Positions 1 through 8,707 of a stretch of 64,000 bases of DNA are shown here, piece by piece; the stretch's first letter is position 1; every line of letters starts with the position of its first letter. The position numbers and the translations under genes are program-made. The notes below the pieces were generated by a model that was not told where the DNA came from, did no database searches, and was given only the letters and a program-made list of their open reading frames with translations. The stretch is from Alteromonadaceae bacterium XY-R5 (GTDB lineage Bacteria > Pseudomonadota > Gammaproteobacteria > Enterobacterales > Alteromonadaceae). The stretch covers positions 992,001 to 1,056,000 of the forward strand of contig LXWE01000002.1 in assembly GCA_001660395.1 (NCBI GenBank), given 5' to 3'.

Positions 1-1261
1 CCCAGGTAGATTGAGTGGCTCTGTCGTCACCTAACATGGTCAGGGCGAAAATAATGTCTTCTGGGGCAGCATTTTCGGTTAGGCGTAACTGGGTTAGCTC
101 ATCGAAACGGTAGTCTAACACCACGAAATCCGCGTCTGTGCCAGGATTCAGGTTGCCGACGCTGTGTTCTAACTGCAGCGCACAGGCAGCACCCTGGGTC
201 ATCATATATAAGCCGGATAACGGCGATAAATTGGTGCCTTTAAGCTGACAAATTTTGTATGCCTCACCCAAAGTACGCAGCATATTAAAACTGGTGCCAC
301 CGCCTACGTCTGTGGCCAGGGTCATGTTAATGTCCAATTCGCGGGCTTTGGCTAAATCAAACAAACCGCTGCCTAAAAACAGGTTCGAGGTTGGGCAAAA
401 GGCGATGCTGGCACCTGTGTCCTTGATGCGTTGCCATTCGTCTTCTTCCAAATGCACACAATGGCCAAATACTGCACGCGGACGTACCATATGGTAATGG
501 TCGTACACATCCAGATAGTGTTTGGCTTGCGGGTACAGGGATTTCACCCACTCAATTTCCTGCTTGTTTTCCGACAGGTGCGTCTGGATAAAGATGTCCG
601 GATAAGCCCTGGCCAGTTCACCCAAACGCTGCATTTGCGCTTCGGTACTGGTTGGGGCAAAACGTGGGGTCAGGGCGTATTTTAAACGGCCGTTGTTATG
701 CCAGGCTTCAATTAGCGCTTTACTGTCTTCGTAGGCGCTGTCGGGGCAATCCTGTAACCAGTCCGGGCAGTTTCTGTCCATGCACACTTTACCCGCCGCT
801 AACAGCATATTGCGGGCTTTGGCGGCGCGAAACAGGGCATCGGTAGCCACTTTATGCACGCTGGAATACACCAGTGCGGTGGTGGTGCCGTTTTTCAGTA
901 ACTGTTGCAAAAAGATCTCGGCGATGGCAGCAGCGTACTCGCCATCGGCGAATTTGGCTTCAATGGGAAAGGTGTAGTTTTCCAGCCAGCTTAAAAGCTG
1001 TTCACCGTAGCAGGCCAGCATTTCCGTTTGCGGAAAATGCATATGGCTGTCAATCAGGCCTGGGATGATCAGCTTGCCGGAATAATCCATATGCTTAGCC
1101 TGCCCATAGCGAGGCAGCAGTTCTGCGGCCGAACCTATGTCGAGGATTTTATCGTTTTCAAGTACCAGCAGGCCGTCGGCAAAATAGCTAAGATCCGTAT
1201 CCGGTGACTGGGTTTTGTTAGCAAAGTGCAGCAAGCTGGCACGTAGCGTGGTGATGCTCAT
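1..1261 (-). CDS. guaD: Guanine deaminase, C-terminal end beyond window
   Basis: Hydrolyses guanine to xanthine and ammonia, feeding xanthine to the xanthine dehydrogenase encoded upstream in the same direction. It belongs to the amidohydrolase superfamily (TIM barrel, zinc). The first 420 residues are visible. They include the metal-binding HMH near residues 73-75 in PGLIDSHMHFPQTEM, the TPRFAPTS stretch, QTHLSEN, FGHCVHL and ATDVGGG, which together are typical of GuaD. E. coli GuaD has about 440 residues, so only the last few residues are probably missing. The ATG lies 9 bp after the uraH stop codon, so it is probably the distal gene of the xdhABC-uraD-uraH-guaD transcript. Identification is secure; the 3' end is not seen. 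Confidence 0.95.
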   Translation of the reverse strand, partial: MSITTLRASLLHFANKTQSPDTDLSYFADGLLVLENDKILDIGSAAELLPRYGQAKHMDYSGKLIIPGLIDSHMHFPQTEMLACYGEQLLSWLENYTFPIEAKFADGEYAAAIAEIFLQQLLKNGTTTALVYSSVHKVATDALFRAAKARNMLLAAGKVCMDRNCPDWLQDCPDSAYEDSKALIEAWHNNGRLKYALTPRFAPTSTEAQMQRLGELARAYPDIFIQTHLSENKQEIEWVKSLYPQAKHYLDVYDHYHMVRPRAVFGHCVHLEEDEWQRIKDTGASIAFCPTSNLFLGSGLFDLAKARELDINMTLATDVGGGTSFNMLRTLGEAYKICQLKGTNLSPLSGLYMMTQGAACALQLEHSVGNLNPGTDADFVVLDYRFDELTQLRLTENAAPEDIIFALTMLGDDRATQSTW

Positions 1262-1270
1262 AGTATCTCG

Positions 1271-1594
1271 TTAACTTCCACGGTAACTGCTAAAGCCGTA
1301 AGGCGAGATCAGCAGGGGAATATGGTAATGGCCGCCACTGGCTTCCATTTCAAAGTGAATATCGACAAAAGGATACAGCCCTTTGCCATGGTGTTGGGTC
1401 AGATAAGCGCCTGTATCAAAACGCAGTTGGTAAATGCCAGGCGTAAGGGAAATATCTCCCCATTGTTTGCAGCGGCCGTCGCTGTCGGTTTCCGCCCTGG
1501 CCACGTCGCCATTGGGGCAGGTTAAGGTCAGGGCCATCTGCGCAGCAGGTTTGCCTGTGGTGGTATCAAGCACATGGCTGGAAAGTGACAACAT
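1271..1594 (-). CDS. uraH: 5-hydroxyisourate hydrolase (transthyretin-like)
   Basis: Hydrolyses 5-hydroxyisourate, the product of urate oxidation, to OHCU, the substrate of the next enzyme UraD. The protein has 107 residues, the usual length of the cytosolic bacterial form without a signal peptide. It has the N-terminal SSHVLDTTTGKPA motif and ends in the family signature YRGS, both carrying active-site residues in transthyretin-related proteins. It lies 11 bp downstream of uraD and 9 bp upstream of guaD in the same orientation, so the three are probably co-transcribed. The symbol hiuH is also used. Confidence 0.95.
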   Translation of the reverse strand: MLSLSSHVLDTTTGKPAAQMALTLTCPNGDVARAETDSDGRCKQWGDISLTPGIYQLRFDTGAYLTQHHGKGLYPFVDIHFEMEASGGHYHIPLLISPYGFSSYRGS

Positions 1595-1605
1595 AGTAAA
1601 TATCC

Positions 1606-2118
1606 TTATTCAGCGGCTGCCAGGCCTTTATTCAGGCGTAGCAGGGTAATCTTAATTTGTTCACCGGCGGCAATCTGCAGCTCTTGGTCACGGGCGTTAT
1701 CTATGCGTGCTTTTAAGGCGTTGAGCATAGTCTCGGCACTGAGTCCGGTGGCGCAGATGATAAAAATAAAGCCGTTTTTTTTCAGGTAGGCGTGATTCAG
1801 TTCGCTCAGTGCCTGAAGGGTTTGCTCTGATGCCACTGCCGTGCCTGACTGCTCACCACTGGCCATGGCTTTGGTGTTGGCAAACTTTGCCCGCAACGAA
1901 TCCACATCGCCAATCATAGGGTGGGCGGTAAAGGCTTCCAGATAATCCTCTTCGGCCATGCTATCCCATAAGGTCTGAGCGGTTTTGAGCAGACTGTCCT
2001 GTGCTGCAAAAGGGCGCGCATTGACCATGCCATCTACCCAGTTTTGCGCCGCGCAGGTTTGGGTAAACCAGGTCGTGGCATCGGCCATCGACAGGGTGTT
2101 GAGTTGTTCCAGTGTCAT
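1606..2118 (-). CDS. uraD: 2-oxo-4-hydroxy-4-carboxy-5-ureidoimidazoline (OHCU) decarboxylase
   Basis: Decarboxylates OHCU to S-allantoin, the last step of the uricolytic branch before allantoinase. At 170 residues it is normal for the family. The proposed catalytic histidine is in TAHPMIGD and is followed by the SGEQSG segment and GFIFIICATG, both conserved in OHCU decarboxylases. The ATG overlaps the stop codon of xdhC by 4 bp (ATGA), suggesting translational coupling. Its neighbours uraH and the divergent puuE use the preceding and following intermediates. Confidence 0.95.
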   Translation of the reverse strand: MTLEQLNTLSMADATTWFTQTCAAQNWVDGMVNARPFAAQDSLLKTAQTLWDSMAEEDYLEAFTAHPMIGDVDSLRAKFANTKAMASGEQSGTAVASEQTLQALSELNHAYLKKNGFIFIICATGLSAETMLNALKARIDNARDQELQIAAGEQIKITLLRLNKGLAAAE

Positions 2119-2960
2119 AATTGGGCTTTTAGCTCCTTGCTTTGCTTCCAGGCCTGTTTTTGCTCGTCGCGGCTATGGGCGGCATCTTTGCTGTTCAGTT
2201 GCTGGACGATTTGTCCGGCAATGGAAATGGCCACTTCAATGGGGCGTTTGCCCGGTATATTCAGTAATCCCACGGGCGATATCAAGGCATCAATCAAAGG
2301 CGGTGGAGTACCCTGATGTTCCAGCCGGGTGCGAAAACGTCTGGCTTTGGTATCTGAGCCTATCATACCCACATAATCCAGATCGGCGCGCTTTAATGCG
2401 GCTTTGACTATGTCGTAATCCAGCTGATGGTTATGGGTCATTACCAGCACCCAGTCGCCGGATTTAAGCTGCGCAACATGATCCTGTGGCTCTTCTAACA
2501 GCACAGGTTTGATATTGCTGGCTTTAGGTGCCTGGACAAATAACTCAGGGCGATTATCCACCCAGTGAATTTGCAAAGGCAATTGCGCCAGAATCGGCAC
2601 CAGCGCATGGGCCACATGCCCGGCACCAAACAGGGCCAGGGTCTGGGTGTGCTGCACTATCACTTCAAACAGTACATTCACAGCACCGCCACAGCACTGG
2701 CCCAGTTTGCTAGAGAGTGGATAGTGTTCCAGCAGCTGGGTTTGTTTGGCACCTAACAGCAGTTCACGGCCTTTACGGGTGACTTCATGCTCCAGATGAC
2801 CGCCACCGATTGTATCGAAGGTGTCATCATCACAAATCACCATTTTCGCACCGGCTTCGCGCGGGGTAGAACCTGCGCTGCCAAGCACCGTGGCAATCAC
2901 ATAGGCTTTGCCCTGGGCCTGACACAGGCTGACAGCATCAAACCAGCGTTCGGCTCTCAT
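2115..2960 (-). CDS. xdhC: Xanthine dehydrogenase accessory protein XdhC
   Basis: Chaperone that binds molybdenum cofactor, promotes its sulfuration and delivers it to the XdhB subunit. The 281-residue protein has the XdhC/CoxI N-terminal region (VLGSAGSTPREAGAKM, then GGGHLEHEV) and a C-terminal Rossmann-like region with LFGAGHVAHALVP and the YVGMIGSDTKARR motif. Its start overlaps the xdhB stop by 4 bp and its stop overlaps the uraD start by 4 bp. Its position directly after xdhB is the usual arrangement for three-gene bacterial xanthine dehydrogenases. Confidence 0.95.
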   Translation of the reverse strand: MRAERWFDAVSLCQAQGKAYVIATVLGSAGSTPREAGAKMVICDDDTFDTIGGGHLEHEVTRKGRELLLGAKQTQLLEHYPLSSKLGQCCGGAVNVLFEVIVQHTQTLALFGAGHVAHALVPILAQLPLQIHWVDNRPELFVQAPKASNIKPVLLEEPQDHVAQLKSGDWVLVMTHNHQLDYDIVKAALKRADLDYVGMIGSDTKARRFRTRLEHQGTPPPLIDALISPVGLLNIPGKRPIEVAISIAGQIVQQLNSKDAAHSRDEQKQAWKQSKELKAQL

Positions 2961-5299
2961 GCGCCTAACTCCTGTTGTAAAGCCATAGCAGCCATCAGCA
3001 CTTTTTCTGGTGTCGCTGGGGTATCCAGCTTTGGATCAACCTTGTAATCACCGATGCTGGAGAGGGCATCTTTGATGGCGCACCATACGGAAATCGCCAG
3101 CATTAATGGTGGTTCACCCACAGCCTTGGAGTGATAGATACTGTCTTCGTCGTTGGCGCGGGGGTATAGATCGACGTTAAATACCGGTGGTGTGTCACCA
3201 ATGGCCGGAATTTTATAGGTCGCCGGGTTGTTACTAATCAGCTTACCCTTGGCATCCCATTTCAGCTCTTCTGTGGTCAGCCAGCCCATGCCCTGAATAA
3301 AGCCGCCTTCAATTTGGCCTTTGTCTAGCGCCGGGTTAATGCTGTTGCCCACATCATGCAGAATATCCACCTGATTAACACAGTATTCACCGGTTAATGT
3401 ATCCACAGTGACTTCAGATACCGATGCGCCATAAGCAAAGTAGAAGAAGGGGCGGCCTGTGCCTGTGGCACGGTCATAGTAAATCTTCGGGGTTTTATAA
3501 AAACCCGTTGAAGATAAGGAAATCCGCGCGAAATAGGCTTTTTGAATAAACTCGGCAAAGGGCCAGCTCTGATCACCAGAGATGACTTGCTGATTATCAA
3601 AGACCACGTCCTCGGCCTTGCCACCCGTTAGCTCGGCCGCAAACTCCGCCAAACGCTGCTTAATGCTTAAACAAGCATTTTGCGCGGCTTTACCGTTTAA
3701 GTCGGTACCGCTGGAGGCTGCCGTAGGCGAGGTATTAGGCACTTTGTCTGTACGGGTGGAGGTGACTTCCACATGTTCCACCGGAATGCCGAATTCATTG
3801 GCACAAATTTGGGCAATTTTGGTATGTAAACCCTGACCCATTTCGGTGCCACCATGGCTGATTTGCAAACTGCCATCTGTGTAGATGTGCAGCAGCGCAC
3901 CGGCCTGATTCAAATGCTGGGCGGTAAAGGAAATACCGAATTTCAGTGGGGTTAACGCCAGACCTTTTTTCAGAATTTGGCTTTTGGCGTTATAGGCCTT
4001 TATCTCTTCGCGGCGCTTCCAGTAATGGCTACTCTCTTCCAGGCGTGCAATCAAATCGCCAATCAGGTTGTGCTCTACTTCCATACCGTAAGGGGTGACG
4101 TTGCGCGCTTTATCCTGATACAGATTGCGCTTACGAATGATCAGCGGATCTTCACCCAGCTTGCGCGCAATGCCATCGAGCATGGCTTCGGCGGCAACCA
4201 TACCTTGCGGGCCACCAAAGCCACGAAAGGCGGTATGGGATACGGTATTGGTCATCCAGCGATGGCCAGTGACGCGTACGTCGCCCATAAAATAGGCGTT
4301 GTCGGCGTGGAACATGGCGCGATCGACGATACCGTCAGACAGATCCGGCGAGTACCCACAATTACCGCTGACGTCGATATCCGCAGCCTGGATCAGGCCC
4401 GTGTCATCAAAAGCAACATGATAGAAATTTTCAAAGGGGTGGCGTTTCCCTGTGGCCTGCATATCCTGCATGCGTGGTACACGCATTTTAACCGCTTTGC
4501 CGGTCCGCGAGGCGAGCAGGGCGGCGATACAGGACCACTGGGCGGCCTGAGATTCTTTACCACCAAAACCACCGCCCATGCGGCGCATATCAACAATTAC
4601 TTTATTCAGTGGGATATCCAGCACTTCGGCCACCAGCTTTTGCACTTCGCTGGGGTGCTGGCTGGAGGCGAATACACTGATACGATCATCTTCTTCGGGG
4701 ATCGCCAGTGAGATCTGGCCTTCCAGATACATATGTTCCTGACCGCCGACACTGGCATGGCCTTTTAAGGTGTTTTTGGCACTGGCCAATACCGTATCAG
4801 GATCGCCATTCAGATTTACATGCACAGGGCGTACGGTCTTATTCTCGGCACGGGCCTGCTTGACACTTAAACAGGCATCCAGCGATTCATATTCGACTTT
4901 TGCTAACTGGGTGGCTTTACGGGCAGCGTCGATACTGGTGGCAGCAACCGCAAATAAAGGCTGGCCCTGAAACAGCACTTTGCCATCGGCCAGCAGGGGA
5001 TCACCTTCAAACACTGCGCCTATGTCCGTATGACCTGGCACATCGTCCAACGTCACCACATCCACTACGCCCGGAAAACTGCGCACGGCTGATAAGTCCA
5101 TCGACGTAATCAGCCCATGGGTAATGGTGCTGATGCCAACGGCGCCATAGAGCAGGCCTTGGGGTTCCGGCATATCGTCTATATAACGGGCCTGACCCTG
5201 CACCTGACGCGTGGCACTTTCGTGAGGATGAGATTTCCCCGCTTTACTGGTGGGTTTAAAGGGCGAGGGTAGCCCTTGAGGTTGCACTAGTTTACGCAT
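2957..5299 (-). CDS. xdhB: Xanthine dehydrogenase molybdenum-binding subunit
   Basis: Large catalytic subunit that oxidises hypoxanthine and xanthine to urate at a molybdenum cofactor. It has 780 residues, as expected for the split bacterial XdhB. Recognisable segments are the N-terminal hammerhead domain (QGQARYIDDMPEPQGLLYGA), GGQEHMYLEGQ, MGGGFGGKESQA, TAFRGFGGPQGM, HGGTEMGQGLHTK, TSPTAASSGTDLNG and the C-terminal VGEPPLMLAISVW, whose Glu corresponds to the catalytic base of the xanthine oxidase family. It overlaps xdhA by 8 bp and xdhC by 4 bp. A long open frame on the opposite strand (3977-4711) is only a shadow of this gene. Confidence 0.97.
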   Translation of the reverse strand: MRKLVQPQGLPSPFKPTSKAGKSHPHESATRQVQGQARYIDDMPEPQGLLYGAVGISTITHGLITSMDLSAVRSFPGVVDVVTLDDVPGHTDIGAVFEGDPLLADGKVLFQGQPLFAVAATSIDAARKATQLAKVEYESLDACLSVKQARAENKTVRPVHVNLNGDPDTVLASAKNTLKGHASVGGQEHMYLEGQISLAIPEEDDRISVFASSQHPSEVQKLVAEVLDIPLNKVIVDMRRMGGGFGGKESQAAQWSCIAALLASRTGKAVKMRVPRMQDMQATGKRHPFENFYHVAFDDTGLIQAADIDVSGNCGYSPDLSDGIVDRAMFHADNAYFMGDVRVTGHRWMTNTVSHTAFRGFGGPQGMVAAEAMLDGIARKLGEDPLIIRKRNLYQDKARNVTPYGMEVEHNLIGDLIARLEESSHYWKRREEIKAYNAKSQILKKGLALTPLKFGISFTAQHLNQAGALLHIYTDGSLQISHGGTEMGQGLHTKIAQICANEFGIPVEHVEVTSTRTDKVPNTSPTAASSGTDLNGKAAQNACLSIKQRLAEFAAELTGGKAEDVVFDNQQVISGDQSWPFAEFIQKAYFARISLSSTGFYKTPKIYYDRATGTGRPFFYFAYGASVSEVTVDTLTGEYCVNQVDILHDVGNSINPALDKGQIEGGFIQGMGWLTTEELKWDAKGKLISNNPATYKIPAIGDTPPVFNVDLYPRANDEDSIYHSKAVGEPPLMLAISVWCAIKDALSSIGDYKVDPKLDTPATPEKVLMAAMALQQELGA

Positions 5300-6725
5300 G
5301 GTTCACCACCCGAATATCAATGGAGCCTTGTTGTTCGAGCCACAAACGCTGCCAAAGGTTCTGACAAACCAATTTACGGTACTGTGCCGTGGCGCGTACA
5401 TCATCAATGGGATTAAAGGCGTTATATAGCAGCGACTGGCCTAACTGGCTGGTGTGCTTATCGGCAAGTGTTAAGCCCCGAAGCTGCTGCTCGGCGTCGT
5501 TGGCGCTGACAGGGGTAGCAGCGACGCCGCCAAAACCTGTACGCAGTTTGCTGATTACGCCATTTTCCAATTCCAGCAGGAACACGGCACATACCGCTGA
5601 AATATCATCTTCATGACGTTTAGAGACTTTATAAGCACGCAGCAGGCTATTGGCCTTACGCTTAGGAAAATGAATGGCTTCAATCCATTCATCTGCCCCT
5701 AGCTGAGTTTGACGGTAGCCAGTGAAAAATTCACGGGCGGGGATCTGACGACGCGCACTACCGTTATCAACATGGATGACAGCGTCGAGCGCCAGCAATA
5801 CCGGTGGCATATCGCCAATCGGTGATGCATTGGCTACGTTGCCCCCCAGCGTCGCCTGATTGCGAATGGGATGAGACGCAAAACGTTCAATCAATTCCGC
5901 CAGTTCGGGTGAGTGGCGTAACAGCGCATCTGTGGCATCTGTTAACGGCACGGCTGCACCCAGGGTTAATCCCGTATCATCCTCAACCACAGCTAACAGT
6001 TCTTCAACCCGCGTCAGGGAAATTAACTGGGGCAGGGTTTTCCACTGCTGAGTAATTTCTAACGCCAGATCGGTACTGCCGGCGACCAAGCGTGCCTCTG
6101 GATATTGCTGACGCAATCTAGTCAGTTCATCCCTGGAGGTTGGCATAAACAGTTCAGCTAAGCCCTTTTCTGCAGATGCCTGTAATTGGGTGAGTGTTTG
6201 AACGGTCTGTGTTTCCTGACGGCTAAACTGATCATCTTGCTTATTACCGCAGGCTTTTAAGGTGGCATCAATAATAGGGCGATAGCCAGTACAGCGGCAA
6301 AGGTTGCCGGAAAGAGCATGCTGTACTTCAGTGCGATCGGGCTGCTTTTCCTCGTGATATAACGCAAACATCGACATTACAAAGCCCGGCGTACAAAAAC
6401 CACACTGAGATCCATGCTCGTCTATCATGGCCTGTTGTACTGGATGCAGGGTTTTACCGTCGGCTAAATGTTCAACGGTAATCAGTTGTTTGCCTTCAAG
6501 AGCGGATAACATAGTGACGCAGCTATTCACGCTGCGATAATGCAGTTTATCCTGCTTCGGGCTTAATTCGGCTAAAACAACCGTACAGGCGCCGCAATCA
6601 CCTGAGGCACAGCCTTCTTTGGTGCCCGTCAGCTTTCTGCGTTCGCGCAGGTAATTAAGCAGGGTCGTATCGGCCTGCTCATCAGTAATCTGTTCAACAG
6701 TGTTGTTCAGCATAAAGCTGATCAT
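5292..6725 (-). CDS. xdhA: Xanthine dehydrogenase FeS/FAD subunit
   Basis: Small subunit carrying two [2Fe-2S] clusters and FAD; it passes electrons from the Mo centre to NAD+. It has 477 residues. The plant-type ferredoxin domain has GCASGDCGACTVV (Cys39, 44 and 47). The second cluster domain has SQCGFCTPG and GNLCRCTGYRP. The FAD domain has LVAGSTDLALEI and NQATLGGNVANASPIGD. The start at 6725 is supported by GGGAG about 6 bp upstream. It is the first gene of the leftward purine operon. Its promoter appears to overlap a RutR-like operator (6801-6816). Confidence 0.97.
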   Translation of the reverse strand: MISFMLNNTVEQITDEQADTTLLNYLRERRKLTGTKEGCASGDCGACTVVLAELSPKQDKLHYRSVNSCVTMLSALEGKQLITVEHLADGKTLHPVQQAMIDEHGSQCGFCTPGFVMSMFALYHEEKQPDRTEVQHALSGNLCRCTGYRPIIDATLKACGNKQDDQFSRQETQTVQTLTQLQASAEKGLAELFMPTSRDELTRLRQQYPEARLVAGSTDLALEITQQWKTLPQLISLTRVEELLAVVEDDTGLTLGAAVPLTDATDALLRHSPELAELIERFASHPIRNQATLGGNVANASPIGDMPPVLLALDAVIHVDNGSARRQIPAREFFTGYRQTQLGADEWIEAIHFPKRKANSLLRAYKVSKRHEDDISAVCAVFLLELENGVISKLRTGFGGVAATPVSANDAEQQLRGLTLADKHTSQLGQSLLYNAFNPIDDVRATAQYRKLVCQNLWQRLWLEQQGSIDIRVVNHA

Positions 6726-6787
6726 AGGGTTCTCCCAAAAAGGTCATCGCCAAGTCCTTTGGCTGTCTTTGCTTTTCAATTGTTACA

Positions 6788-6816
6788 TAAATACAAAAAC
6801 CAGACCAACTGGTCAA
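6788..6816 (-). promoter_or_regulatory. xdhA promoter with overlapping RutR-like operator
   Basis: Reading leftward, TTGACC (6816-6811) and TATTTA (6793-6788) are separated by 17 bp and fit a sigma-70 promoter for xdhA. The -35 hexamer lies inside the palindrome at 6801-6816 (CAGACCAACTGGTCAA), which matches the E. coli RutR consensus TTGACCAnnTGGTCAA at 12 of 14 fixed positions. Binding there would block polymerase, so repression is the natural reading. The match was made by eye and no binding is shown. Confidence 0.6.
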
Positions 6817-7032
6817 CTTTTATGTGAGAAAATTACAAAAAGCGAAAACTGCTTAGAAAATGCCTTGCCAAATGTGTAGGTTTTCTATGCTTAAGTTTAG
6901 CAATTGGACACGTCTTGGACGAATAGCCGCTGCTCTTTGCTCGTAGAGGAAGCGTTCGAGCCCTTAGTTTTCAGGGCTATTGTACTCAAAGTGGTGATTT
7001 TCTGATTGATTGATAAAGATATTTTTTAAATT

Positions 7033-7063
7033 TTGACTATTTGGTCTGAAAAACGCATACACT
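7033..7063 (+). promoter_or_regulatory. Putative autoregulated promoter of the RutR-like gene
   Basis: The sequence TTGACTATTTGGTCTG at 7033-7048 matches the RutR consensus TTGACCAnnTGGTCAA at 11 of 14 fixed positions. Its first six bases also make a good -35 hexamer. A weaker -10 (TACACT, 7058-7063) follows at 19 bp, or CATACA at 17 bp. The regulator start codon is about 60 bp downstream. This suggests the regulator represses itself through a site like the one in front of xdhA. Confidence 0.5.
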
Positions 7064-7118
7064 TAGTCCATACATTTCGAATACAACGACATAAATAAGC
7101 GAAGGTAGATAGGAGTCC

Positions 7119-7769
7119 ATGGTTAGGCGTCGAACTATGAACAAAGATGGTGCAATACGTGCACAAAATCAGGCCAAAATCATTGCAGCGGCGGAAATTG
7201 CGTTCGCCCAACATGGTTTCAAAGGAACCAGTGTCCAAAAAGTGGCAGATGAAGCCGGTTTACCAAAAACGAACGTTCTGTATTACTTCAAAAATAAAGA
7301 AGGCCTGTACATGGCCGTACTGGAGCGGATCCTAAATTTGTGGAACTCCACCTTTGACCGCGCAACAGTAGCTGATGACCCCGCTAAAATCCTCGCCCGC
7401 TATATTGCGGAAAAGATGGAAGTGTCTCGGATTAAACCTTTGGCATCTAAAATATTTGCTTTGGAAATTATCAATGGCGCGCCGAATCTGAGCGATTTCT
7501 TCAAGCATGATCATGCGGAATGGATGCGTGGCAGAGTAACCGTGATAGAAGGTTGGATTGCTGCAGGTAAAATGAATCCAATCGATCCGCATTATCTGCT
7601 TTATAACATCTGGGCCAGTACTCAGCATTATGCTGATTTTAGTGCGCAGATCACCCATTTACGGGGCGAGGCGATGGCGCCAATGGATTACCGAGAGGCT
7701 ACTCGTACCCAAATCAGATTAATTCTCAACGGTTGTGGACTGGATGTTCCGACGGAATTTCAGTCCTGA
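7119..7769 (+). CDS. TetR-family regulator, RutR-like, probable purine catabolism regulator
   Basis: DNA-binding repressor of 216 residues. Residues about 17-65 form the TetR helix-turn-helix (AFAQHGFKGTSVQKVADEAG, then PKTNVLYYFKNKEGLY). The C-terminal part resembles E. coli RutR, most clearly at IDPHYLLYNIWASTQHYADF, where RutR has a nearly identical stretch. RutR senses uracil or thymine; the ligand here is unknown and could be a purine catabolite. The ATG at 7119 has AGGAG only 3 bp upstream, and a second in-frame ATG at 7137 is possible. It is divergent from xdhA and 32 bp upstream of puuE, so it probably controls both sides. I do not assign the symbol rutR because no rut genes are present. 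Confidence 0.88.
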   Translation: MVRRRTMNKDGAIRAQNQAKIIAAAEIAFAQHGFKGTSVQKVADEAGLPKTNVLYYFKNKEGLYMAVLERILNLWNSTFDRATVADDPAKILARYIAEKMEVSRIKPLASKIFALEIINGAPNLSDFFKHDHAEWMRGRVTVIEGWIAAGKMNPIDPHYLLYNIWASTQHYADFSAQITHLRGEAMAPMDYREATRTQIRLILNGCGLDVPTEFQS

Positions 7770-7801: not shown

Positions 7802-8707
7802 ATGAGTATTGTTGATTATCCAAGAGACTTAGTTGGATATGGAGCCAATCCGCCTCATCCAAACTGGCCAAATAAGGCAAAGATCGCAGTGCAGTTTGTG
7901 CTTAATTATGAAGAAGGCGGTGAGAACTGTGTTCTACATGGTGATAAAGCGTCTGAGATTTTTCTGTCGGAAATCATAGGCGCACAGGCTTATCCTGATC
8001 GCCATCTGAGCATGGAATCTATCTATGAATATGGTTCACGTGCAGGGTTTTGGCGTTTACATCGTTTATTGGAACGTTACAAGGTGCCAGTGACAGTCTT
8101 TGGTGTGACTATGGCCATGCAACGTCATCCAGAAGCCTTAGCCGCGATGCTGGAAGCCGATTGGGAAATTGCCAGCCATGCCATGCGGTGGATCCATTTT
8201 CAGGATATGAACGAGCAAACCGAGCGTGAGATGATCCAGGCATCTGTCGACTTGCATACTGAGTTAACGGGTACAGCACCAGCAGGCTGGTATACCGGAC
8301 GCACCAGCCCAAATACCTTAAAACTGATTGCAGAGCGTGACGATATTTTGTATTGCGCGGATTCTTACGCCGATGACTTGCCTTATTACGACAGGCATTA
8401 CAGTAAACCCCTGTTGATTGTGCCATACACTCTGGACACCAACGATATGCGCTTTGCCACGCCCCAGGGGTTTAATACCGGCGAGCATTTCTTTCAGTAT
8501 TTGAAAGATGCGTTCGATGTGCTGTACGCCGAAGGGGAATATGCGCCCAAAATGCTCTCCATTGGATTACACAATCGTATCGTCGGTCGTCCCGCGCGCA
8601 TGGCGGGGTTACAACGCTTTATCGAGTATGTGCAGTCCCATGAGCAGGTATGGTTATGTACCCGTGAGCAAATCGCTCACCACTGGCTGGATAACTTTCC
8701 CGCGTAA
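7802..8707 (+). CDS. puuE: Allantoinase, PuuE type (polysaccharide-deacetylase fold)
   Basis: Opens S-allantoin to allantoate. The 301-residue protein is of the metal-independent PuuE class, unrelated to AllB amidohydrolases. Diagnostic segments are YPRDLVGYGANPPHPNWP near the N-terminus, LNYEEGGENCVLHGD, SMESIYEYGSRAGFWR, GWYTGRTSPNT and GLHNRIVGRPARM. A local variant is SHAMRW where many homologues have SHGLRW. The start has AAGGA 8 bp upstream. It sits 32 bp downstream of the RutR-like gene, probably in one transcript ending at the hairpin 8731-8753, and acts downstream of UraD. Confidence 0.95.
   Translation: MSIVDYPRDLVGYGANPPHPNWPNKAKIAVQFVLNYEEGGENCVLHGDKASEIFLSEIIGAQAYPDRHLSMESIYEYGSRAGFWRLHRLLERYKVPVTVFGVTMAMQRHPEALAAMLEADWEIASHAMRWIHFQDMNEQTEREMIQASVDLHTELTGTAPAGWYTGRTSPNTLKLIAERDDILYCADSYADDLPYYDRHYSKPLLIVPYTLDTNDMRFATPQGFNTGEHFFQYLKDAFDVLYAEGEYAPKMLSIGLHNRIVGRPARMAGLQRFIEYVQSHEQVWLCTREQIAHHWLDNFPA

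Follow-up and report, generated by a model that had tools for sequence, protein, structure and literature searches.

Which genes does a RutR-like regulator control when it stands among genes for purine breakdown, and to which signal does it answer? The question was raised by a 64-kb stretch of DNA (the window, i.e., C112:992001-1056000 of the 5.1-Mb genome G000), in which the plus strand carries a TetR-family regulator gene and puuE, the latter starting 32 bp 3′ of the former, and the minus strand carries, in this order, xdhA, xdhB, xdhC, uraD, uraH, guaD and, past the window edge, puuD. The genes, as assigned with Pfam and NCBIfam, are the following:

7119..7769, plus strand: TetR-family regulator, RutR family, 216 aa (PF00440 and PF08362)
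7802..8707, plus strand: puuE, allantoinase PuuE (TIGR03212, 515 bits, cut-off 424.6)
5292..6725, minus strand: xdhA, xanthine dehydrogenase FeS/FAD subunit (PF00111, PF01799, PF00941, PF03450)
2957..5299, minus strand: xdhB, molybdopterin subunit (PF20256, PF02738, PF01315)
2115..2960, minus strand: xdhC, maturation factor (PF13478, PF02625)
1606..2118, minus strand: uraD, OHCU decarboxylase (PF09349)
1271..1594, minus strand: uraH, HIU hydrolase (PF00576)
1..1261, minus strand: guaD, guanine deaminase (TIGR02967, 566 bits; at its 3′ end the gene runs about 31 bp past the window edge)
L011:4643-5866, minus strand: puuD, urate oxidase, after guaD and past the window edge (PF06181)

Judged by these families, the genes of the locus jointly encode the pathway from guanine to allantoate. 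The original prediction had the regulator standing with xdh, ura and puuE genes and without rut genes beside it, and the assignments confirmed this.

Family placement of the regulator

Both domains of the regulator, TetR_N (PF00440, 48.8 bits) and TetR_C_3 (PF08362, 165.4 bits), scored above cut-off, and the protein was matched to the structure PDB 3loc with E=6.8e-43. Of the matches, 586 were confirmed, and among the top 80 its nearest named relatives came from Alteromonas, Paraglaciecola, Aliiglaciecola and other Alteromonadaceae. The resemblance to RutR that had been claimed was borne out by the PF08362 family, by the contact residues and by the predicted operator at the regulator's own genes (boxes of 12/14 and 11/14, the xdhA box being kept in 33/35 genomes; see below), but it did not extend to the equivalog, whose cut-offs were missed (TIGR03613, 194.4 against 368 bits; NF011584, 169.1 against 230), nor to a position within the rut-type branch.

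The tree on which this placement is based held 94 rows and was rooted at its midpoint, with a long E. coli branch about which the program issued a warning; of the 61 Pseudomonas-type proteins besides L239 and L249, one was lost to the length filter and every fifth of the other 60 was used. The Alteromonadaceae clade (52 rows) had a support of 92/87, below the program's star, and its closest clade consisted of the Pseudomonas-type proteins, with a joint node at 98/87. Nine rut-type proteins, including that of E. coli, formed a separate branch (100/100), eight of the nine having adjacent rut genes, and the pyd-linked paralogs and further members also fell outside the joint Alteromonadaceae–Pseudomonas clade. 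Two nearby clade members, L219 and L225, lie on one contig of an uncultured Paraglaciecola, one of them on a long branch, and xdh genes were not found in their flanks.

The Pseudomonas-type loci (n=63, L230-L292) comprised 61 from Pseudomonas or Stutzerimonas, one from Marinobacterium and one from a MAG. That they represent PydR-type pyrimidine regulators was considered and rejected, as homologs of PreA, dihydropyrimidinase or RutA were present in the flanks of 0/63, and at least one purine marker in 55/63; five others had only a nearby ABC transporter ATPase, and three had none. The neighbours included 8-oxoguanine deaminase (41 loci), adenosine deaminase (27) and xanthine permease (21), with xdh/puu genes at L239 and L249, and genes for beta-alanine aminotransferase and MMSDH were found near 53/63. 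A palindrome search upstream of the regulator in 60 of these loci gave 16 matches to an AGCGA-type palindrome, and a RutR-type box was not found there. Because the nearest Pseudomonas relatives, too, sit among purine genes, the comparison supports the view that the window regulator is a TetR protein of a purine-linked branch of the RutR family.

The predicted operator between xdhA and the regulator gene

All scores out of 14 refer to TTGACCANNTGGTCAA, which we take to be the RutR consensus, with its 14 fixed positions. Three features of the xdhA–regulator gap have to be considered:

6801..6816, minus strand: candidate operator box 1 (the xdhA box), CAGACCAACTGGTCAA, read as TTGACCAGTTGGTCTG on the xdhA sense strand; 12/14
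7033..7048, plus strand: candidate operator box 2, before the regulator gene, TTGACTATTTGGTCTG; 11/14, weakly supported
6788..6793, minus strand: TATTTA, proposed as the -10 element of xdhA; 17 bp from TTGACC, 3/6 to TATAAT

The two scores had been counted by eye in the original prediction and were correct. Box 1 is the sole 12/14 site in the 64 kb, and box 2 is one of five 11/14 sites. When the 393-bp intergenic region was shuffled 5000 times with its dinucleotides preserved, a score of at least 12 was reached in 6 shuffles, at least 11 in 117, and two sites of at least 11 in a single one, so that box 1 and the pair exceed chance and box 2 by itself is marginal. In a control on the 14-kb rut region of E. 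coli K-12, the top match was an 11/14 site in the rutA–rutR gap. The RutR operator is described as a palindrome of about 16 bp in the account given in PMC10891134.

The orthologous regions were then compared. A search of 196 family genomes for the regulator gave 35, including G000, with a match of at least 52% identity, the remaining matches listed having at most 46%. A box of at least 11/14 was found in 33/35 of the orthologous xdhA–regulator regions (window locus counted), so that the loss of the box from relatives with the same gene order, which had been named as grounds for refutation, did not occur. Within the 32 loci that were parsed together, box 1 scored 14 in three, 13 in thirteen, 12 in eight and 11 in six (30/32), and L034, L060 and L066, scored apart from these, had 13/14 each. 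The two exceptions are L042 (10/14) and L043 (9/14), in genomes G087 and G159, each of which is without an exact site; the operator may have drifted there. In none of the other 31 loci did the regulator side show a counterpart of box 2 scoring at least 11: a different palindrome in L020 scores 11 and lies near xdhA, and L021, L022 and L035 have a 10-scoring site near the regulator. Because box 2 is not conserved, autoregulation would stand on one weak site. A [GC]TTTT flank follows 31/32 of the xdhA boxes versus 13/64 of the wider sites described below, and it was rejected as a general part of the operator on the latter count.

It had further been proposed that the boxes overlap the -35 elements of both divergent promoters, and this was not established: a sigma-70 consensus scan of 6650-7200 found no promoter (shuffle mean 1.1), and no -10 was conserved. 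For xdhA, the 17-bp spacing between TTGACC and TATTTA is as claimed, but TATTTA matches at 3/6 and is not kept in relatives; for the regulator gene, the supposed -35 in box 2, TTGACT, has only CATACA at 17 bp. Some -10-like hexamer of at least 4/6 is present at spacers of 16-19 in 21/32 loci, and the best one begins 36-37 bases after the box start in 8 of the 32; as letters and spacing differ among the loci, a conserved promoter architecture at the xdhA box was not adopted. These observations bear on an alternative, namely that TTGACC, which resembles TTGACA, is just a -35 element and the palindrome around it incidental. Such a reading is hardly credible, given that both half-sites are conserved, with the right half inside the would-be spacer, that no -10 spacing is conserved, and that the sites are enriched in genomes with the regulator.

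Sites across the genomes and the protein that would bind them

The genome-wide motif search that had been suggested as a check was run with the pattern YWGACCANNTGGTCWR, and enriched palindrome sites were found outside the xdhA locus. In the 35 regulator-bearing genomes, which add up to about 165 Mb, there are 94 sites, 29 at xdhA and 65 elsewhere, with 4 for the reversed pattern. The control set consisted of 35 genomes of the family, about 140 Mb in total, with a PF08362 protein in 0/35; 10 of these contain 14 sites, three of them in G047 (85% complete), with 7 for the reversed pattern. The density, on rounded genome sizes, is 0.57 per Mb with the regulator versus 0.10 per Mb without, and the chance expectation is about 0.26 per 4.7-Mb genome, assuming independent bases at 45% GC. 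The position of 64 sites (63 elsewhere and one at xdhA) was examined: none is inside an ORF of more than 200 aa, one in G179 is within a 158-aa ORF, and one has its nearest gene start more than 350 bp away. Both of the non-xdhA sites outside this set lie upstream of genes.

Targets were grouped by clusters of neighbour genes at most 350 bp from a box, with Pfam run on representatives. Smaller clusters are present besides those named here:

pfkB-type ribokinase: 12 genomes, with a gap of about 325 bp in four
TonB-type receptors: 11 genomes
uridine kinase: 10 genomes, or 11 when a further check is counted
adenosine deaminase-like proteins: 5 genomes
NMT1-like binding protein: 5 genomes
rhodanese-like neighbours: 5 genomes
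Endonuclease I cluster: 4 genomes, plus an LTD/Exo_endo_phos protein in G081
purine nucleoside permease: 3 genomes
PF00860 permease: 3 genomes, and another PF00860 permease with adenosine deaminase in 2
lpxC-like gene (named by eye): 3 close relatives

In G000 itself there are three full-palindrome sites, at xdhA, at nup (L114) and at a ribokinase with a nucleoside hydrolase (L327). Boxes of 12/14 also occur at L009:4877-4892 and 8504-8519, about 120 bp upstream of two tandem genes for large proteins with Endonuclease I and Exo_endo_phos domains. These two nuclease boxes are suggestive as targets; on a rough estimate, chance would give about 16 sites of 12/14 in every 5 Mb. Two looser patterns tried in G000, TTGACYNNNNGGTC (13 matches) and GACYANNTGGTC (17 forward), were not enriched over the reversed pattern and were dropped. 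Elsewhere, a 2OG-Fe(II) oxygenase-like gene follows the box in two genomes (L148:7605-7620 and L158:3559-3574), and in a third genome a similar-looking gene, at L323:5627-6466, lies downstream of genes for uridine kinase and for a nucleoside transporter. A 14/14 box in G081 (L325:8749-8764) has a LysR gene on one side and, on the other, the beta-alanine aminotransferase gene of a pyd operon with PreA. The lpxC-like gene has an exact box 55-57 bp upstream in L130, L132 and L138 (G182, G163 and G120), with no evident purine link.

The regulator had been thought to be a RutR-family protein dedicated to purine catabolism. The purine-linked branch agrees with this, but "dedicated" is too narrow for the distribution of the boxes, because boxes also stand at genes for nucleases, uridine kinase and ribokinase and at the pyrimidine operon of G081. 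The model arrived at is that of a regulator, within the purine-linked RutR-family branch, which governs the scavenging of purines and nucleic acids, and as a whole it is judged probable. The sequence comparison shows that the xdhA box is conserved, that sites are enriched where the regulator is present, of what kind many of the targets are, and that the nearest relatives have purine genes around them; from such comparison we infer binding, repression, autoregulation and release by a ligand. A dimer of the regulator would bind the near-palindrome [CT][AT]GACCANNTGGTC[AT][AG] shortly upstream of xdhA and repress the guaD-puuD-ura-xdh operon, and possibly, through box 2, its own puuE-linked gene. 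A nucleobase-like ligand would loosen the protein from the DNA, and repression would be relieved, which is the likely mode by analogy with RutR. The same protein may act in G000 at the copies of the box beside the ribokinase–nucleoside hydrolase genes, the purine nucleoside permease gene and perhaps the two nuclease genes, and in relatives at those beside genes for uridine kinase, TonB-type receptors, adenosine deaminases, nucleobase permeases and nucleases. The recognition segment, KTN-LYYF as in E. coli RutR, speaks for the model; against it are the 14 exact sites in 10/35 genomes without PF08362, and recurrent neighbours without an evident link, such as the lpxC-like gene.

E. coli RutR binds a consensus similar to these boxes, and G000 contains a second PF08362 protein (L045:7419-8054), a pyd-linked paralog with 46% identity to the regulator; both facts would suit the alternative that not the adjacent regulator but a different PF08362 protein, a pyd-linked or rut-linked paralog, binds the boxes. 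This is nevertheless very unlikely. The xdhA-linked regulator is the sole PF08362 protein in 22/35 genomes, most of which have boxes, among them boxes beside uridine kinase (7), ribokinase (3), the nuclease cluster (3) and permeases. Four rut-type paralog regions (two with rutA-rutF, one with only rutE/rutF-like genes and one with none) had no box of at least 11 in the gap upstream of the regulator. The pyd-linked paralog, moreover, has distinct boxes in its own cluster, TTTACCNNNNGGTAAA. It has the same uracil-contact residues as the window regulator, but its recognition segment reads KQLLIYYF versus KTNVLYYF, and its neighbours are pyrimidine-degradation and F420-biosynthesis genes. These boxes of the TTTACC....GGTAAA type, TTTACCAAATGGTAAA / TTTACCTTTTGGTAAA at L045:7167, 12382 and L176:11914, lie upstream of cofG and of an amidohydrolase gene and represent a symmetric variant of the RutR box; 2/3 of the exact matches in G000 are in the cluster, and 2/3 of those in G148 in the cluster there. 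Because genomes without the pyd-linked paralog also have 0 to 3 such matches each, the assignment of these boxes to the paralog stands on their location and their repetition in two genomes; the match between its changed recognition helix and the variant box is suggestive. The adjacent regulator accordingly is kept as the protein that would bind the xdhA-type boxes.

The pyrimidine cluster in question (L045:717-15285 and beyond, C24:68000-84000; also L176 in G148) contains genes for F420 biosynthesis, cofE and cofD by family search and cofG, cofH and cofC by eye, as well as an F420 reductase (TIGR01915) and a TIGR03842 F420-dependent oxidoreductase. A PreA-type dihydropyrimidine dehydrogenase was found in neither G000 nor G148 (best E 2.3e-4 and 7.7e-5), and G081 has one (4.9e-95). 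The F420 genes together with the missing PreA-type enzyme in G000 and G148 suggest that the first step of uracil reduction in this cluster may be F420-dependent.

Ligand and comparison with known systems

Uracil is contacted in E. coli RutR by W77, Y97, W167, Q171 and Q179′, and DNA binding is lost upon uracil binding, according to the account in PMC10891134. All five residues were invariant in 47/47 rows of the window regulator's clade, 45 of them distinct. This constancy would suit uracil or another pyrimidine as the ligand, in which case the pyrimidine signal of nucleic acid being eaten would switch on purine catabolism, and so would the recurrence of uridine kinase among the targets and the situation in G081, where no PF08362 protein other than the xdhA-linked regulator is present and the 14/14 box stands before the pyrimidine-reduction operon. 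The core neighbourhood, however, is purine in the window clade and in the sister clade alike, and position 78, beside the stacking W77, is N in 47/47 clade rows, versus L in 9/9 rut-type and D in 60/60 Pseudomonas-group proteins. A pyrimidine ligand is considered rather unlikely, and less likely than a purine.

The other reading, that the ligand is a purine-derived compound, has to accommodate the same retention of all known uracil contacts and the box at the pyrimidine operon of one genome (G081). It draws on the link of the regulator to the guanine-to-allantoate pathway, on the sister clade with its xanthine permease, 8-oxoguanine deaminase and adenosine deaminase genes (a purine marker in 55/63), and on two residues common to both purine-linked clades, F81 (51/52 in the Alteromonadaceae clade and 62/62 in the Pseudomonas-type) and R141 (52/52 and 62/62), each found in 0/28 of the other family members aligned. 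Xanthine would be the most likely compound, because its pyrimidine ring shows the same dioxo face as uracil, and urate or allantoin would be less so. The neighbourhoods thus lean toward a purine, and since the loci of the sister clade turned out to be purine and not pyd loci, the purine reading was raised from a modest possibility to one just short of an even chance, and the pyrimidine reading, which had stood somewhat better at the outset, was lowered to its present rank.

Taken more widely, and held only tentatively, the argument is that the RutR family has a purine-linked branch extending over Alteromonadaceae and Pseudomonas, in which a single Alteromonadaceae protein might control every stage of the route: first nuclease and the uptake of nucleosides, then deamination and the salvage of ribose, and at the end the oxidation of the purine ring. 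It would be insulated from the pyd-linked paralog, where one persists, by a recognition helix and an operator that have changed in step (TTGACC versus TTTACC), and the sensor may read xanthine with its uracil contacts kept. If this is true, RutR-family proteins are not solely pyrimidine sensors, and the paired difference in helix and operator would make the two paralogs of a single genome a clear example of insulated regulation. The defined protein, box and target list make the question of uracil or xanthine a testable one.

Among open-licence PMC papers, no description of a regulator of purine-ring catabolism in Alteromonadaceae was found; a curation paper on Alteromonas macleodii, in its passage on the puuD region, notes that region without a regulator. 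RegPrecise RutR regulons cover 68 genomes in 13 groups, and the motif is reported to change from taxon to taxon (Leyn et al. 2016, PMC5343134), and RutR is presented in the corresponding passages of that paper as a regulator of pyrimidine catabolism, with no purine targets named there; some of the targets found here may already be contained in those regulons.

The Pseudomonas purine-linked proteins (e.g., L240, L256 and L249) are closest to the window regulator, as members of the sister clade with 50-56% identity that have F81 and R141 in common with its clade, but they differ in the HTH (KANLHYYF versus KTNVLYYF, positions 53 and 56) and in that no RutR-type box was found upstream of them. 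PydR of Pseudomonas putida has been published as a RutR-like protein that represses a gene of a pyrimidine pathway (Hidese et al. 2012, cited in PMC7332683); in G000, the pyd genes have another paralog and other boxes, and it is in G081 that a 14/14 box is found at a pyd operon. With E. coli RutR, finally, the window regulator shares the TetR_N and TetR_C_3 domains, the HTH KTN-LYYF, a near-identical predicted 16-bp operator and the five uracil-contact residues, but it reaches 194.4 of 368 bits, has no adjacent rut genes and belongs to a branch separate (100/100) from that of RutR, and its box-bearing genes centre on the use of purines and nucleosides.
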